A stretch of 38,183 nucleotides of DNA from a virus. Below the pieces are notes generated by a model. That model did not search any database. It saw nothing but the letters and a program-made list of their open reading frames with translations, and was not told where the DNA came from. Both the position numbers and the translations under genes were made by a program. The stretch is from positions 1-38,183 of the IMG/VR virus record IMGVR_UViG_3300037502_001377. One strand, 5' to 3'. Shown piece by piece: positions 2,902 through 38,183 of the stretch (the stretch's first letter is position 1; the number at the start of each line of letters is the position of its first letter).

Positions 2902-3218
2902 TCTTCGACACAGCCAAAGCACAGCAGGCGCACCGTCGCTTGGCGTGGCTTCCATCAAGGGCTTACCGACCTTTGCAGGTCCAGGCAACGAAGGTCGAGC
3001 GGTCCTACGGCGACGCCGAGTCTGTGGTCCGTGCCTACGTCATGCAGGCCGGGTGCGATGTCACCGTGGCCGACGTTGTTGAGGACACCGGCGTGCCCAA
3101 GAGCACTGCGGGCCGGCTGATGAACAAGCTGGTGCAGGATGGTGTGCTGATCGCATCCCGCCGACTGGAGCAGTCGCGGTGGATAGCAACTTACAGGAGC
3201 AGAACATGGGCGGAATGA
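2889..3218 (+). CDS. Winged-helix DNA-binding protein, paralogue of the preceding gene (109 aa)
   Basis: The product shares the layout of its upstream neighbour: an N-terminal AHRRLAWLPSRAYRPLQ segment corresponds to AHRRLSVLLPCAFHSPL in the neighbour. A winged helix follows (VTVADVVEDTGVPKSTAG, then LVQDGVLIAS). The shared N-terminal motif at the same distance from the HTH supports a duplication followed by divergence. It starts 13 bases before the end of the previous gene. Function beyond DNA binding is unknown. Confidence 0.7.
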   Translation: MARLIFDTAKAQQAHRRLAWLPSRAYRPLQVQATKVERSYGDAESVVRAYVMQAGCDVTVADVVEDTGVPKSTAGRLMNKLVQDGVLIASRRLEQSRWIATYRSRTWAE

Positions 3219-3778
3219 TGGTCTACACGACACTGAACAAGATCCGTTCGCGCGGCCCGTGCGAGAGCGGCTGGGTCAAACTGCTGAAACACCTTGGCAA
3301 AACCAAAGCCGACGACGAGCCGCTTGCGCTAGCGACGGTGTTAGAGAGCAACGGACTGGAAGACGCTCTCTGGTGCCTGCGTGCCTGTGATGGTATCGAC
3401 CGTGAGGCGCGTCTCTACGCAGTCTGGTGTGCTCGACAGGTGCAGCACCTGATGACCGACCCGCGCACGCTGGCTGCTCTGGATGTTGCAGAGCGTTACG
3501 CCAACGGCGAGGCCACGGATCAGGAGTTGGCCGCAGCGAGGGCCGCAGCGTGGGCCGCAGCGTGGGCCGCAGCGTGGGGCGCAGCGTGGGGCGCAGCGTG
3601 GGACGCAGCGTGGGACGCAGCGTGGGACGCAGCGAGGGCCGCAGCGAGGGACGCAGCGTGGGCCGCAGCGTGGGACGAAGCGTGGGACGAAGCGTGGGAC
3701 GAAGCGTGGGACGAAGCGAGGGACGCACAGGCAAACGAGTTCCGCCGGGTGTTTTGTACTGAGGAGGTGGTGCGATGA
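3206..3778 (+). CDS. Ala/Trp tetrapeptide-repeat protein (190 aa)
   Basis: Chosen start is ATG 3206, 6 nt after AGGAG (3195-3199); the reading frame is also open upstream from a GTG. The N-terminal ~100 residues form a mixed domain ([31 protein letters not shown]) not recognised by name. Residues ~109-173 are encoded by sixteen 12-bp repeats giving A-A-W-x / D-E-A-W tetrapeptides. This should form one long helix with Trp or Arg every four residues. A short tail follows. Similar AAW-repeat proteins of unknown role occur in phage early regions. The repeat number probably varies between related phages by slippage. Confidence 0.8.
3533..3724 (+). repeat. Sixteen tandem 12-bp repeats (GCAGCGTGGGAC type)
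   Basis: Uninterrupted array of 16 units of 12 bp, 192 bp in total. Variants are GCAGCGTGGGCC, GCAGCGTGGGGC, GCAGCGTGGGAC, GCAGCGAGGGCC and, at the right end, GAAGCGTGGGAC. The variants are clustered in blocks, which suggests local duplication. The unit is a multiple of three, so it keeps the coding frame and also leaves other frames open on both strands. Confidence 0.97.
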
Positions 3779-34220: not shown

Positions 34221-34493
34221 ATGATGTACCCGACTTTCGAATACGAATTCATCGAGCCTCGCCACGGCTACAACGTCACCGCTGTCATCCGGATCGATTG
34301 GTATGACTCCGGCTACGCATCAACCTGGGACGAAGAGGGCTACGGCCCCGAAGTCGAATTCACCGTCTGCAATCACCGAGGCCAGCTCGCGCCTTACATC
34401 GAAAAGCGCATGAGTCAGCGCCACATCGACGCCATCACCGACATGGCGCTCGACATCATGGCCCAAGACGCGGAAGAGGACTACTACCCATGA
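34221..34493 (+). CDS. First gene of the early operon, hypothetical (90 aa)
   Basis: GGGAG (34212-34216) precedes two adjacent ATG codons (34221 and 34224). The protein is acidic and aromatic, beginning MMYPTFEYEFIEPRHGYN, then VTAVIRIDWYDSGYASTWDEEGYGPEV, and a C-terminal helix DIMAQDAEEDYYP. The segment resembles small phage proteins of unknown role placed ahead of recombination genes. A DNA-mimic function is conceivable from its acidity but unsupported. Confidence 0.7.
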   Translation: MMYPTFEYEFIEPRHGYNVTAVIRIDWYDSGYASTWDEEGYGPEVEFTVCNHRGQLAPYIEKRMSQRHIDAITDMALDIMAQDAEEDYYP

Positions 34494-34693
34494 ACACAAC
34501 CCTCACCGCCGCCCACATTGCCGAGACGCATGACCTACTGATGCGTATCTATCGGCAACTCCGAGAAAAGCCCATCAGCACATGGACCATTGACGACATC
34601 GTTGACGTTCGGATCAGTTGCCTCAACAACGCGATCCGCCTCAAGGTCCACTGCCTCGACAACCTGCCCACCATCAGCATCAAGGAAGACTGA
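34490..34693 (+). CDS. Small hypothetical protein (67 aa)
   Basis: ATGA overlap with the previous gene. Helical N-terminus (AAHIAETHDLLMRIYRQLRE), then STWTIDDIVDVRISCLNNAIRLKV. No domain recognised. Ends one base before the ATG of the Sak4-like gene, so it is co-translated with it. Confidence 0.65.
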   Translation: MNTTLTAAHIAETHDLLMRIYRQLREKPISTWTIDDIVDVRISCLNNAIRLKVHCLDNLPTISIKED

Positions 34694-34694
34694 C

Positions 34695-35369
34695 ATGGCC
34701 ATCCAACTCAAATCCACCAAAGACCTCGCCGCCGGGGGCGTGAAACTGCTGGTCTACGGCGCGGCCGGTGCCGGCAAGACCTCGCTCATCCCCACCCTGC
34801 CGACGCCCGTCGTCCTGTCGGCCGAAGGTGGCCTGCTCTCCATCGCCGGGGCCGAGGTGCCCTACATTGAGATCGGCAACATGGAGACGCTGCGCGAGGC
34901 CTGGAAATGGCTTGCCGAGTCGGACGAGGCCCGCGCCTTTGAGTCGGTCGCGCTCGACTCCATTAGCGAGATCGCCGAGGTGGTCCTGAATGCCGAGAAG
35001 AAGGCCACCAAGGACCCGCGCCAGGCCTACGGGGCCATGCAGGAGCAGATGACAGACATCATCCGCGCCTTCCGCGACCTGCCCGGTCGCAATGTCCTGA
35101 TGACGGCGAAATTGGAGAAGCAACAGGACGAAATGGGGCGCGTGCTCTACAGCCCTTCCATGCCTGGCAACAAGACGGGGCAGGCTCTCCCGTATTTTTT
35201 CGATGAAGTGCTGGCCCTTCGCGTGGAGAAGGACGCCGAGGGTGCCGTCCAGCGCGTGCTCATGTGCGACAGCGACGGCCTGTGGTTGGCCAAGGATCGC
35301 TCGGGCCTGCTGGATATGTGGGAGCAGGCCGACTTGGGCGCGATCATTCGCAAGATCAGGGGGGAGTGA
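34695..35369 (+). CDS. Sak4-like RecA-fold ATPase (single-strand annealing recombinase), 224 aa
   Basis: Walker A GAAGAGKT (22-29), then TPVVLSAEGGLLSIAG, the Walker B-like FESVALDSISEI, and RNVLMTAKLEKQQDE. This is the AAA_24 core-RecA layout of phage Sak4 proteins, which pair or anneal complementary single strands. With the DUF669 SSB-like protein and the PD-(D/E)XK nuclease encoded just downstream, it forms a complete phage recombination set. Starts at ATG 34695, chosen over a longer frame that overlaps the previous gene. Confidence 0.85.
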   Translation: MAIQLKSTKDLAAGGVKLLVYGAAGAGKTSLIPTLPTPVVLSAEGGLLSIAGAEVPYIEIGNMETLREAWKWLAESDEARAFESVALDSISEIAEVVLNAEKKATKDPRQAYGAMQEQMTDIIRAFRDLPGRNVLMTAKLEKQQDEMGRVLYSPSMPGNKTGQALPYFFDEVLALRVEKDAEGAVQRVLMCDSDGLWLAKDRSGLLDMWEQADLGAIIRKIRGE

Positions 35370-35818
35370 TGATTCATGCCGTGCCAATGACTTTGACTGA
35401 AGCAAAGACCTTCGTGGCGAACTTTCATCGCCACAACAAAGCGCCGCAAGGTGGCTTGTTTGCGGTTGGCGCAAGTGACGGTCAAGGGCTCATTGGCGTG
35501 GCTATTGTTGGCCGTCCCGTTGCCAGATTCTTGGACAACGGGGAGACGGTCGAAGTCATCAGGTGTTGCGTCAAAGACGACGCGCCAAAAGGGGCGTGCT
35601 CATTTTTGTACGCACGCTGCTGGAACGCCGCAAAGGCACTGGGATGGAAAAAGATGATCACTTACACATTGCAAAGCGAGTCTGGCGCAAGCCTGCGTGG
35701 AGCAGGTTGGCGCGTTGTGGCTGAACTCAAAGCCAACGACGGAGCCGGGTGGCAAAACCGACCCGGCCGCGAATGGCAAGCGGTTGTTGGTCAAGCCAAG
35801 TTTCGATGGGAGGCATGA
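35369..35818 (+). CDS. XF1762-like protein, GNAT-fold (149 aa)
   Basis: TGATG coupling to the Sak4-like gene. The sequence follows the XF1762/phage pattern: MTLTEAKTFVANFHRHNKAP, GQGLIGVAIVGRPVARFLDNGETVEV, GACSFLYARCWNAAKALGWKKMITYTL, and LRGAGWRVV. This order of strands and helices resembles a GNAT acetyltransferase fold with a GW...i.Y pattern. Substrate unknown; it could modify a protein or base, but that is conjecture. Confidence 0.75.
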   Translation: MIHAVPMTLTEAKTFVANFHRHNKAPQGGLFAVGASDGQGLIGVAIVGRPVARFLDNGETVEVIRCCVKDDAPKGACSFLYARCWNAAKALGWKKMITYTLQSESGASLRGAGWRVVAELKANDGAGWQNRPGREWQAVVGQAKFRWEA

Positions 35819-36195
35819 TGGAATACCTGATCCACCTCTGGCTCCAAGCCAAAGAGACTGAACGCGCGGCCGTCGAGGCCCGCCGGCAGGCCGAGGACGC
35901 AATGGTCGAAGTCCTGCGTATCGACCCGACGGTCGAGGGCACGATCAACCGCGAGACGGAAGGGTTCAAGATCAAGGTCGAGCCCCGCATTGATCGCAAG
36001 GTCGACGCCGGAAAGCTCATCGATCTCGCGGCCGAGAACAATCTGAACGCCCACCTCGAGACCCTGTTCCGCTGGGGCGCGGATCTCAACATGACGGCTT
36101 GGAAAGCCGCTGATCCCCTGATCCGACAGGCACTTTCGGGTGCCATCACCGTGCGGGCCGGTCGCCCGAGCTTCAAAATCGTACCCAAGGAGTGA
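35818..36195 (+). CDS. Hypothetical protein linked to the recombination genes (125 aa)
   Basis: ATG 35818 is 4 nt after GGGAGG. N-terminal helix (HLWLQAKETERAAVEARRQAEDAMVE), then a small beta part with GFKIKVEPRIDRKVDAGKL and NMTAWKAADPLI, ending GRPSFKIVPKE. Homologous-looking proteins (DUF7173 type) occur beside Sak4/SSB genes in other phages. Probably an accessory recombination or replication factor. Confidence 0.65.
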   Translation: MEYLIHLWLQAKETERAAVEARRQAEDAMVEVLRIDPTVEGTINRETEGFKIKVEPRIDRKVDAGKLIDLAAENNLNAHLETLFRWGADLNMTAWKAADPLIRQALSGAITVRAGRPSFKIVPKE

Positions 36196-36200
36196 CAAGC

Positions 36201-36686
36201 ATGAACTTCGAAGCCATTTCCCTCGACGAACTGCCGGTCAACGACAAGCCGACCGGAGCCTACGATCCGGTCCCGGCCGGCGCGTACTCGGCCAGCATCA
36301 CCAGCGCCGAGGCCCGCCCGACCAAGGACGGCAGCGGCCAGTACATCAAGGTCCGGTATGACATCACCGGCCCCAGCCATGTCGGGCGCGTGATCTTCTC
36401 CAACATCAACATCCGCAACAACAGCGCTGAGGCCGAGCGGATCGGTCGCGCCCAACTGGGCGACCTGATGCGTGCGTGCGGGCTGCGGCAACTGACCTCG
36501 CCCGAGCAGTTGATCGGCGCGCAGGTCGAGATCCAGGTCGCCATCCGACCGGCACGCGGCGAGTACCCGGCAAGCAACGAGGTGAAGGGGATTCGGGGCA
36601 GCGGCACGCCATCGTTCGCCGCCGACATCCCCGCTGCGCCTAAGCCCGCTGCCGCGAAAGCCGCGCCCCCGTGGGCGAAGAAGTAA
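36201..36686 (+). CDS. DUF669-type single-strand DNA-binding protein (161 aa)
   Basis: AAGGAG (36187-36192) is 8 nt before ATG 36201. The DUF669 signature is clear: PAGAYSASITSAE, IKVRYDITGPSHVGRVIFSNINI, and AQLGDLMRACGLRQL. V.I.V.IRPARGEYPASNEVKGI follows. The C-terminus is flexible and Pro/Ala-rich and ends in Lys (APPWAKK), not the acidic tip of host SSB. DUF669 proteins bind single-stranded DNA with an OB-like fold in phage recombination operons. Confidence 0.85.
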   Translation: MNFEAISLDELPVNDKPTGAYDPVPAGAYSASITSAEARPTKDGSGQYIKVRYDITGPSHVGRVIFSNINIRNNSAEAERIGRAQLGDLMRACGLRQLTSPEQLIGAQVEIQVAIRPARGEYPASNEVKGIRGSGTPSFAADIPAAPKPAAAKAAPPWAKK

Positions 36687-36699
36687 CAACAATCATGCG

Positions 36700-36717
36700 G
36701 CGGGTCGAAAGGCCCGC
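36700..36717 (+). other. GNRA-capped hairpin between the SSB-like and HTH genes
   Basis: GCGGGUC-GAAA-GGCCCGC: seven pairs including one U.G, in the 61-bp gap after the DUF669 gene. No U tract follows, so it is not a classic terminator. It may stabilise mRNA or give partial termination. Confidence 0.5.
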
Positions 36718-36747
36718 AGCGTCACACGAAAGATTGATTAGCTACCG

Positions 36748-37017
36748 ATGAGGCAGACACGCAACGAGCGGCAACTTGAGCGGGGCGACTACCTTGTGCG
36801 GTCGTCCGAGTTTGCTCTGCGAGGCCAGGAATTGCCGCACGCCAAGCTGACGGATGATGATGTCGTTGCGATCCGAAGCGCGGTTCGGCAGCGCGAAGCA
36901 TTGCGCAAACACATTCGCAACAACCTGAGCAACGAGGCGCTCGCTCGGCATTTCGGAGTGCATGAACGCACCATCGAAAAGGTGGTGCAGCGCGAATCTT
37001 GGTCGCATCTTCTGTGA
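36748..37017 (+). CDS. Helix-turn-helix phage protein (89 aa)
   Basis: The C-terminal half (LTDDDVVAIRSAVRQREALRKHI then NLSNEALARHFGVHERTIEKVVQ) is a homeodomain-like helix-turn-helix. Phages often encode such short 'AKLT.ddV..IR......lA..fgVs..tI..i....W' proteins. It probably regulates early genes. No clear ribosome binding site precedes the ATG. Followed by an inverted repeat before the nuclease gene. Confidence 0.8.
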   Translation: MRQTRNERQLERGDYLVRSSEFALRGQELPHAKLTDDDVVAIRSAVRQREALRKHIRNNLSNEALARHFGVHERTIEKVVQRESWSHLL

Positions 37018-37018
37018 C

Positions 37019-37044
37019 AAAAAAACCCCGGCATTGCGCCGGGG
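37019..37044 (-). terminator. Intrinsic terminator pointing leftward inside the rightward operon
   Basis: On the minus strand CCCCGGC-GCAAT-GCCGGGG followed by TTTTTTT: seven G-C pairs and seven U. On the plus strand the same hairpin lacks a U tract, so rightward messages pass. No leftward gene ends here, so it may block antisense transcription into the Sak4-SSB region. Confidence 0.7.
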
Positions 37045-37081
37045 AAAGTCACAGGAGACTACCCACAGGAGAGACAGAGAC

Positions 37082-38110
37082 ATGGACCTACAGGGACAGC
37101 ATACGCTTGCAGCGGCCATCGATCAAGCCCACCAAGAGCGCCCGCAGGATTGGCGCGACCATCTCGGCGCGTCAGTGCTGGGCCACCCATGCGAGCGGTG
37201 GCTATGGCTATCTTTTCGCTGGGCGATCAAGGAGGAATTCCCCGGCCGCATCCTGCGCGTGTTTCGGCGCGGCCAGAACGAAGAGGCCATCGTCGTCAGC
37301 GACCTGCGGGCCGCTGGGCTGGATGTTCGCTTTACTGGCGACAACCAGAAGCGCGTGGATCTCGGGCCGCACCTGGGCGGCTCGCTGGATGGCATCGTCG
37401 AGTCAGGCGTGCCAGAGGCGCCGAAGGCTCGCCATGTGCTGGAGATCAAGACGCACAGTCTGAAGTCATTCAACGACTTGGTGCGTGACGGCGTGGAGAA
37501 GTCCAAGCCGCAGCATTACGTCCAGATGCAGTGCTATATGCACGCGACCAAAATTGAGCGTGCGCTTTACATCGCCGTCTGCAAGGACGACGACAGGTTG
37601 CACATTGAGCGCGTGCGGTATGACAAAGCGGTGGCCGAAAAGTTCATTGCCCGTGGCCGTCGCATCGTGAGCGCCGACCGCATCCCCATGCGTATCCATC
37701 ACGATCCGTCTTGGTGGCAATGCAGCTATTGCGCGGCGCACGCCATGTGCCACAAGGCGCAGCCGACCCGCGAAACCAATTGCAGAACTTGCGCCCACAG
37801 CACGGCGATGGACGATGGAACTTGGCGCTGCGAGCGGCACGATGCCGATGCGATCCCGCCGGGATTTCAGCGGCAGGGATGCGAGAGCCATGCGCTGCAC
37901 CCGGATCTCGTGCCGTGGGAGATGGCCGATCCGATAGACAAATGGACGCCGGTCTTCGTCATCAACGGCAAGAAAGTCGCCAACGGCGAGGGCGACGCCC
38001 ATGTGTTCACTTCCCGCGAGATCTTGGCCAACCCGGCGAAGTGTGCCGAGAACGATGAGATTTTGCAGGAACTGCGCGGTCCCGAGTGGGGCGGGAGGGT
38101 GGTGGGATGA
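37082..38110 (+). CDS. Cas4-like PD-(D/E)XK exonuclease with Fe-S-type cysteines (342 aa)
   Basis: RecB/Cas4-type nuclease motifs: SVLGHPCERWLW (C37), RRGQNEEA (E67), GGSLDGIV (D103), HVLEIKTHS (E121, K123) and QHYVQMQCYMHA. After the core, C214, C217 and C223 (CSYCAAHAMC) together with C37 match the four-cysteine iron-sulphur pattern of Cas4/AddB nucleases. A second cysteine group follows (NCRTC, WRCERHD, GCESH), likely a small zinc domain. It probably resects DNA ends for Sak4-mediated annealing. AGGAGAG lies 8-10 nt before ATG 37082. The end is repeated at 1-134 because the genome is circular. Confidence 0.9.
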   Translation: MDLQGQHTLAAAIDQAHQERPQDWRDHLGASVLGHPCERWLWLSFRWAIKEEFPGRILRVFRRGQNEEAIVVSDLRAAGLDVRFTGDNQKRVDLGPHLGGSLDGIVESGVPEAPKARHVLEIKTHSLKSFNDLVRDGVEKSKPQHYVQMQCYMHATKIERALYIAVCKDDDRLHIERVRYDKAVAEKFIARGRRIVSADRIPMRIHHDPSWWQCSYCAAHAMCHKAQPTRETNCRTCAHSTAMDDGTWRCERHDADAIPPGFQRQGCESHALHPDLVPWEMADPIDKWTPVFVINGKKVANGEGDAHVFTSREILANPAKCAENDEILQELRGPEWGGRVVG

Positions 38111-38183
38111 GGACTCAGGAGCAGATTGTCGAACTGGCACGCAAATGCCAGCACTTGGACCAACCCGGCGCGCATTCTTTCCG
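37977..38183. repeat. Terminal direct repeat, right copy (circular overlap)
   Basis: Same as bases 1-207, with T at 38056 instead of G at 80. In the nuclease gene this gives Asp instead of Glu. The repeat crosses a gene boundary, so these are not natural transcription-unit ends. Confidence 0.95.
38107..38183 (+). CDS. N-terminal fragment of the 57-aa protein (complete copy at 131-304)
   Basis: ATG 38107 overlaps the nuclease stop. The fragment is cut by the window end and is the same as the start of the gene at 131. It is a consequence of the circular overlap. Confidence 0.9.
   Translation, partial: MRTQEQIVELARKCQHLDQPGAHSF

Follow-up and report, generated by a model that had tools for sequence, protein, structure and literature searches.

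A conserved phage Sak4 recombination operon with DUF7173, probably a detached exonuclease accessory domain, as a constant member and a Mom-like gene as cargo

Published surveys have found that sak4 adjoins the genes of DUF669 single-stranded DNA-binding proteins (SSBs) and of ResIII/helicase_C helicases (PMC8093625; PMC5928155), and in phage HK620 the SSB recruits Sak4 via its last six residues, NDYPPF (PMC5928155). Here we analyse a recombination module of this type in the IMG/VR virus record IMGVR_UViG_3300037502_001377, a 38,183 bp entry without host genome, the whole of which is referred to as the window. Like the Sak4-SSB modules of HK620 and of Firmicutes phages (e.g. Sfi21), the block in the window places Sak4 beside a DUF669-type SSB and a ResIII/helicase_C helicase (PMC5928155, PMC8093625). 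It differs from them in that it also includes a Cas4-type exonuclease (Exo) and a VRR-NUC nuclease, and in that a DUF7173 protein occupies the place of the Gam-like or Gp157 neighbour, which in Sfi21 is a Gam-like gene located ahead of Sak4. We consider it rather likely that the block represents a "resect, coat and anneal" operon, in which DUF7173 is a core subunit and the counterpart of an exonuclease accessory domain, and in which a Mom-like gene and a helix-turn-helix (HTH) gene are cargo.

A first-pass annotation of this DNA had claimed a Sak4/SSB/nuclease recombination module that is continued by a RadD-like helicase and VRR-NUC. This is borne out by the open reading frames (ORFs) and their family matches, since all named genes are ORFs on the plus strand at the positions annotated before and the family scans concur (Pfam, PHROGs; Table 1). 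The module runs across the ends of the record. Bases 1-207 repeat bases 37977-38183 with 206 of 207 positions identical and the sole mismatch at base 80. This speaks for circular permutation or terminal redundancy; joining the ends, which had been assumed before, is therefore reasonable. Owing to the mismatch itself (G vs T), the exonuclease end has Glu in one copy and Asp in the other.

For the comparison with relatives we fetched 106 related loci, using DUF7173 or the exonuclease as bait, and scanned them with hidden Markov models (HMMs) of the window genes. One order, namely Sak4-DUF7173-SSB-Cas4-type exonuclease-RadD-like helicase-VRR-NUC, is kept in about 100 IMG/VR loci: Sak4 is located ahead of DUF7173 in 95 of 97 loci, the distance between DUF7173 and SSB is at most 60 nt in 99 of 102, Exo comes after SSB in 89 of 90, RadD after Exo in 79 of 79 and VRR-NUC after RadD in 45 of 45. 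This gene order is far beyond chance, and DUF7173 is located between Sak4 and SSB almost everywhere. The block is also present in the named Idiomarinaceae phage 1N2-2 and Alteromonas phage XX1924, which share the order Sak4-DUF7173-SSB-x-Exo-helicase-VRR-NUC with the window but lack a Mom gene at the Sak4/DUF7173 junction and fill the SSB-Exo and helicase-VRR slots with other genes; in Salicola CGphi29 and ct3Oc712 the block matches as far as it is visible. The recombination module itself is ordinary, and the earlier impression of an unusually full gene set does not hold, since the same block is the rule among the surveyed loci and the named phages.

We next focus on DUF7173, for which the IMG/VR contigs contain at least 545 relatives, mostly labelled hypothetical or "DNA binding protein". 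The AlphaFold2 (AF2) model, based on 53 sequences (pLDDT 90, pTM 0.64), starts with a 31-residue N-terminal helix, which is followed by two paired strands and four helices, and ends in a strand at the C-terminus. A comparison of this model with the PDB revealed no significantly similar fold (lowest Foldseek E 0.65; highest VIA Z 2.1), and sequence searches of solved structures with Mom, Exo and DUF7173 returned nothing useful. Among viral models, Foldseek recovered DUF7173 relatives together with two PD-(D/E)XK/RecB-like exonucleases, TIN4 and KellEzio (E 5e-4 and 6e-3), and the C-terminal 130 residues of TIN4 resemble a helix followed by a DUF7173-type domain. Because of these exonuclease matches, we examined the DUF2800 exonucleases, using as a search lead the peptide PPGKPTLVP, which we take to be a motif of these enzymes. 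A DNA pattern for the peptide yielded 80 IMG/VR loci, all of which contained it in frame, mostly within long DUF2800-type ORFs. Aligned with hhalign, DUF7173 matched the C-terminal domain of the DUF2800 proteins with a score of 38.3 (P 4.2e-6, probability 87%), while column shuffles reached a mean of 12 and a maximum of 19.6. Since the DUF2800 set had been chosen by the motif, PPGKPTLVP was removed as a control, after which the score was 27.7 compared with a maximum of 20.0 in 100 shuffles. Seven segments taken from elsewhere in the same DUF2800 exonucleases only scored 9-11 with DUF7173.

In the operon's own Exo family, a copy of the DUF2800 C-terminal domain was not detectable (profile scores 14 and 16). 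From this, together with the profile match, we conclude that DUF7173 probably corresponds, as a free-standing protein, to the C-terminal domain of DUF2800 exonucleases, i.e. is a detached exonuclease accessory domain. The simplest reading is one domain that is fused to one exonuclease type and separately encoded beside another. The DUF2800 (RecE-like) exonucleases carry their C-terminal domain, to which the DUF7173 profile corresponds, fused to the nuclease, and their published context is duf2800-gp2.5-polA (PMC8093625). None of the 80 DUF2800 loci, fetched flanks included, was matched by the DUF7173, Exo, Sak4, SSB or RadD HMMs; the genomes of the loci L107 and L108 and control genomes contained no DUF2800, which is uninformative.

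Several points weigh against this assignment. The DUF7173/DUF2800 match spans residues 48-119, so that the long N-terminal helix lies outside, and the sequence match between the TIN4 C-terminus and DUF7173 is weak (score 20.5; shuffles up to 17). Moreover, the DUF2800 set was gathered with a motif resembling the tail of DUF7173, which was controlled for by the motif removal, and we found no biochemistry on DUF7173. The locus counts are conditional on the DUF7173 or Exo bait and thus biased to carriers of these genes, many of the surveyed contigs are fragments, some of them short, and the loci L009 and L011 belong to one contig.

The position of DUF7173 beside the annealase and its long helix with a small domain recall Mu Gam, Gp157 of Sfi21 and the gam-bet-exo arrangement of lambda. 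According to the main rival explanation, DUF7173 is a Mu Gam-like protector of DNA ends or inhibitor of host nucleases and the third component of a lambda-Red-like trio (gam, annealase, exonuclease). The neighbour of sak4 in Firmicutes phages is often Mu gam-like or orf157-like (PMC8093625), as in the Sfi21 order "Mu Gam-like"-Sak4-helicase-SSB, and the AF2 models of DUF7173 and Mu Gam agree in their arrangement, with a long helix first, then strands, a helix and short helices, and a C-terminal strand last. In addition, hhalign placed DUF7173 residues 80-125 on Mu Gam residues 126-169 with a score of 23.6, above the shuffle maxima of 18.2 and 20.1 obtained with two seeds, but this match is weak (probability 9%, P 0.004) and restricted to the C-terminal third of DUF7173. 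Foldseek matched DUF7173 to "Siphovirus Gp157" (E 6e-3, prob 0.99) and weakly to "Host-nuclease inhibitor" (E 0.19); however, the Gp157 profile scored 13.5 against DUF7173, which is inside the shuffle range and no match. Unlike a member of the Gam or Gp157 families, DUF7173 has no significant match to either: Gam (PF07352) is absent from the 25 families listed for 53 Pfam-scanned DUF7173 members at E up to 1, and scans of three distant members with an E limit of 10 gave no Gam match in Pfam or PHROGs. There is no match between the profiles of Gam and of the DUF2800 C-terminal domain. DUF7173 possibly has a Gam-like fold, for which the evidence is weaker than for the detached exonuclease domain, and we regard a role as end protector or nuclease inhibitor as rather unlikely. 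A further reading, which we hold only tentatively and with some doubt, would combine elements of both: DUF7173 could be a trans-acting subunit of Cas4-type exonucleases, with the same domain as in the DUF2800 fusion and a Gam-like fold, that passes resected DNA to SSB and Sak4.

The first-pass annotation had suspected new recombination partners in the GNAT-like protein and the protein of unknown function in the middle of the block. A neighbourhood comparison, asking whether these intermediate genes are absent or scattered in related phages, separates the two: DUF7173 is a constant member, whereas the GNAT-like gene is unlinked to the module elsewhere and its site is empty in four close relatives. 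The GNAT-like protein belongs, as judged from its profile matches, to the Mom-like DNA-modification family. While the window protein itself remains under the curated cut-off of Pfam Mom (PF25680; 22.7 bits vs 27.1), 20 of 25 homologues hit this family with an E of 0.01 or lower (best 2.7e-7). With Mu Mom and phrog_1384 it shares the family match and a GNAT-type conserved pattern; at 149 aa it is much shorter than Mu Mom (241 aa), and a com-like gene was not seen next to it. The enzyme is predicted to shield phage DNA from restriction. It could instead be a protein acetyltransferase or another GNAT without a DNA-modifying role, since phage GNATs can target proteins, e.g. Rac of phiKMV-like phages (PMC7824862), homologues in Mycobacterium prophages are labelled "acetyltransferase", and the direct comparison of the window protein with Mu Mom is weak (P 0.03). 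We consider this improbable in view of the match to phrog_1384 ("Mom-like DNA modification protein"; Table 1), the Pfam Mom matches of the homologues and the presence of other DNA-modification genes, namely DNA methylases, in nearby slots of relatives. Such methylases fill the Exo-RadD gap in L043 and the SSB-Exo gap in L027, and the operon therefore accepts modification genes.

The Mom ORF exactly fills the stop-start overlap of Sak4 and DUF7173, with TGATG and a 1-bp overlap on both sides, so that the insertion keeps the translational coupling of the operon. In L004, L005, L006 and L009, the Sak4 stop and the DUF7173 start overlap directly as TGATG with no insert, and the flanks are 84-89% identical to the window. 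The same slot holds other ORFs elsewhere, i.e. one of about 100 aa in L003 and one of 88 aa in L007 and L008. Considering the junction in 96 other loci, 44 show the direct stop-start overlap, 8 are close without overlap and 44 have a gap or cargo, and almost all of these last 44 have their next ORF beginning at the Sak4 stop. Although its location inside the operon, with single-base overlaps on both sides, could point to the GNAT-like protein as a novel partner of Sak4 and SSB in recombination, this is very improbable: the protein is a Mom-family member, seven close relatives do not have it at this site and almost none of the module loci contain it, with one further locus among about 106 carrying a Mom-like gene, there outside the block, and 25 Mom-like loci elsewhere, four of them 77-80% identical, showed none of Sak4, DUF7173, SSB, Exo and RadD within their fetched flanks. 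Because of the empty sites and the missing linkage, we do not count the gene among the recombination partners; it is cargo in the Sak4/DUF7173 junction. The HTH gene, which is present in 4 of 107 loci, likewise looks like variable cargo of the SSB-Exo gap, which measures only 66-69 nt in L005 and L008; its product resembles the HTH parts of phage HNH endonucleases. The core sequence of the hairpin between the HTH and nuclease genes (37026-37044) is identical in L004, L005, L006, L008, L009 and L011.

The catalytic residues and the cysteines of the exonuclease are conserved. The PD-(D/E)XK and QxxxY residues D103, E121, K123, Q148 and Y152 are present in 87 of 87 sequences, including the window protein, and the Fe-S cysteines, i.e. 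C37 at the N-terminus and C214/C217/C223 (C-x2-C-x5-C) at the C-terminus, in 85-86 of 86 homologues. The cysteines beyond the Cas4 set that had been pointed out before are real (C234/C237/C250/C267), and they look like a putative zinc site. They are not new to this phage: they are kept in 79-82 of 86 homologues, and they are part of the Exo family because phrog_1990 covers residues 7-279. This family-wide conservation in about 80 of 86 homologues rules them out as a novelty of the window nuclease. In 36 of 45 loci (e.g. L041:9280-9477), though not in the window, the RadD-VRR gap harbours a separate protein of some 65 aa that displays a CHTC...C...C pattern. Its resemblance to the Exo cysteine domain is weak (hhalign probability 28%, P 6.5e-4), and an equivalence of the two is unproven.

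The SSB of the window ends in APPWAKK (36645-36686), and a PPW tip is found in 86 of 94 loci. This tip may be the counterpart of NDYPPF in HK620, though it is basic and not acidic. The gene identities, the synteny, the empty sites and the profile homology between DUF7173 and the DUF2800 C-terminal domain are direct results of the comparisons. For the scheme that follows, we infer the biochemical roles, the direction of resection and the protein contacts throughout from established family roles and from the HK620 work (PMC5928155). Exo would resect double-stranded DNA ends and SSB would coat the exposed strand, Sak4 would be loaded onto the SSB-coated DNA via the SSB tip and then anneal, and the RadD-like helicase and VRR-NUC would process branches. 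DUF7173 would most likely work with Exo at the DNA end, where it could either hold the end or hand the resected DNA to SSB and Sak4.

The proposed role of DUF7173 as a detached exonuclease accessory domain beside the Sak4 annealase is testable and provides one useful new lead, and it could help to make Sak4/SSB/Exo sets usable in recombineering beyond enterobacteria. If DUF7173 is indeed a trans-acting subunit, phages would build a resection-annealing machine in fused and split forms, and a family of unknown function that is present in hundreds of phage contigs would obtain a function. The Mom-like gene, in turn, represents a clean case of predicted anti-restriction cargo that entered a core operon at a translationally coupled junction.

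Table 1 Features of the recombination module in the order obtained after joining the ends of the window. E-values refer to Pfam and PHROGs families.
Feature	Position	Strand	Family match or sequence evidence
Sak4-type core-RecA ssDNA annealing protein, 224 aa	34695..35369	+	phrog_124 E 9.7e-54; AAA_24 E 2.1e-27
Mom-like (GNAT-like) DNA-modification enzyme, 149 aa	35369..35818	+	phrog_1384 E 2.5e-33 over 131 residues
DUF7173 protein, 125 aa	35818..36195	+	PF23791 E 5.6e-20, 72.2 bits vs curated cut-off 27
DUF669 SSB-like protein, 161 aa, C-terminus APPWAKK	36201..36686	+	DUF669 E 2.6e-9; phrog_2300 E 3e-38; phrog_6015
Small HTH protein, 89 aa	36748..37017	+	HTH_38 E 1.5e-5 (below cut-off); phrog_6156/phrog_20467 E 3-4e-5
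Terminator-like hairpin (minus-strand transcription), HTH/nuclease interval	37026..37044	-	inverted repeat 37013-37056 TGTGAC-A7-CCCCGGC/GCCGGGG-AAA-GTCACA
Cas4/YqaJ-type PD-(D/E)XK exonuclease, 342 aa	37082..38110	+	phrog_1990 E 1.3e-95
Small protein between nuclease and helicase, 57 aa	131..304	+	close relatives only (cluster of 5 loci)
RadD-like SF2 helicase with zinc-ribbon motif, 527 aa	291..1874	+	ResIII E 3e-22; UPF0547; phrog_16 E 8.5e-102
VRR-NUC nuclease, 140 aa	1868..2290	+	VRR_NUC E 2e-4 (below Pfam cut-off); phrog_824 E 1.9e-37; phrog_5702 "Holliday junction resolvase" E 5e-10

The module starts at a divergent point, where a RepA/primase-type gene and a small regulator lie opposite on the minus strand; a RepA-type gene on the opposite strand was also found in 75 of the surveyed loci. 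Two small ORFs of 90 and 67 aa precede Sak4 (34221-34693) and are common to close relatives only, the 90-aa ORF showing a weak match to YuA Gp49-like proteins below the cut-off. Beyond VRR-NUC, the ORF at 3179-3778 contains a long stretch of AAWDAAW/AARAAAW-type repeats.

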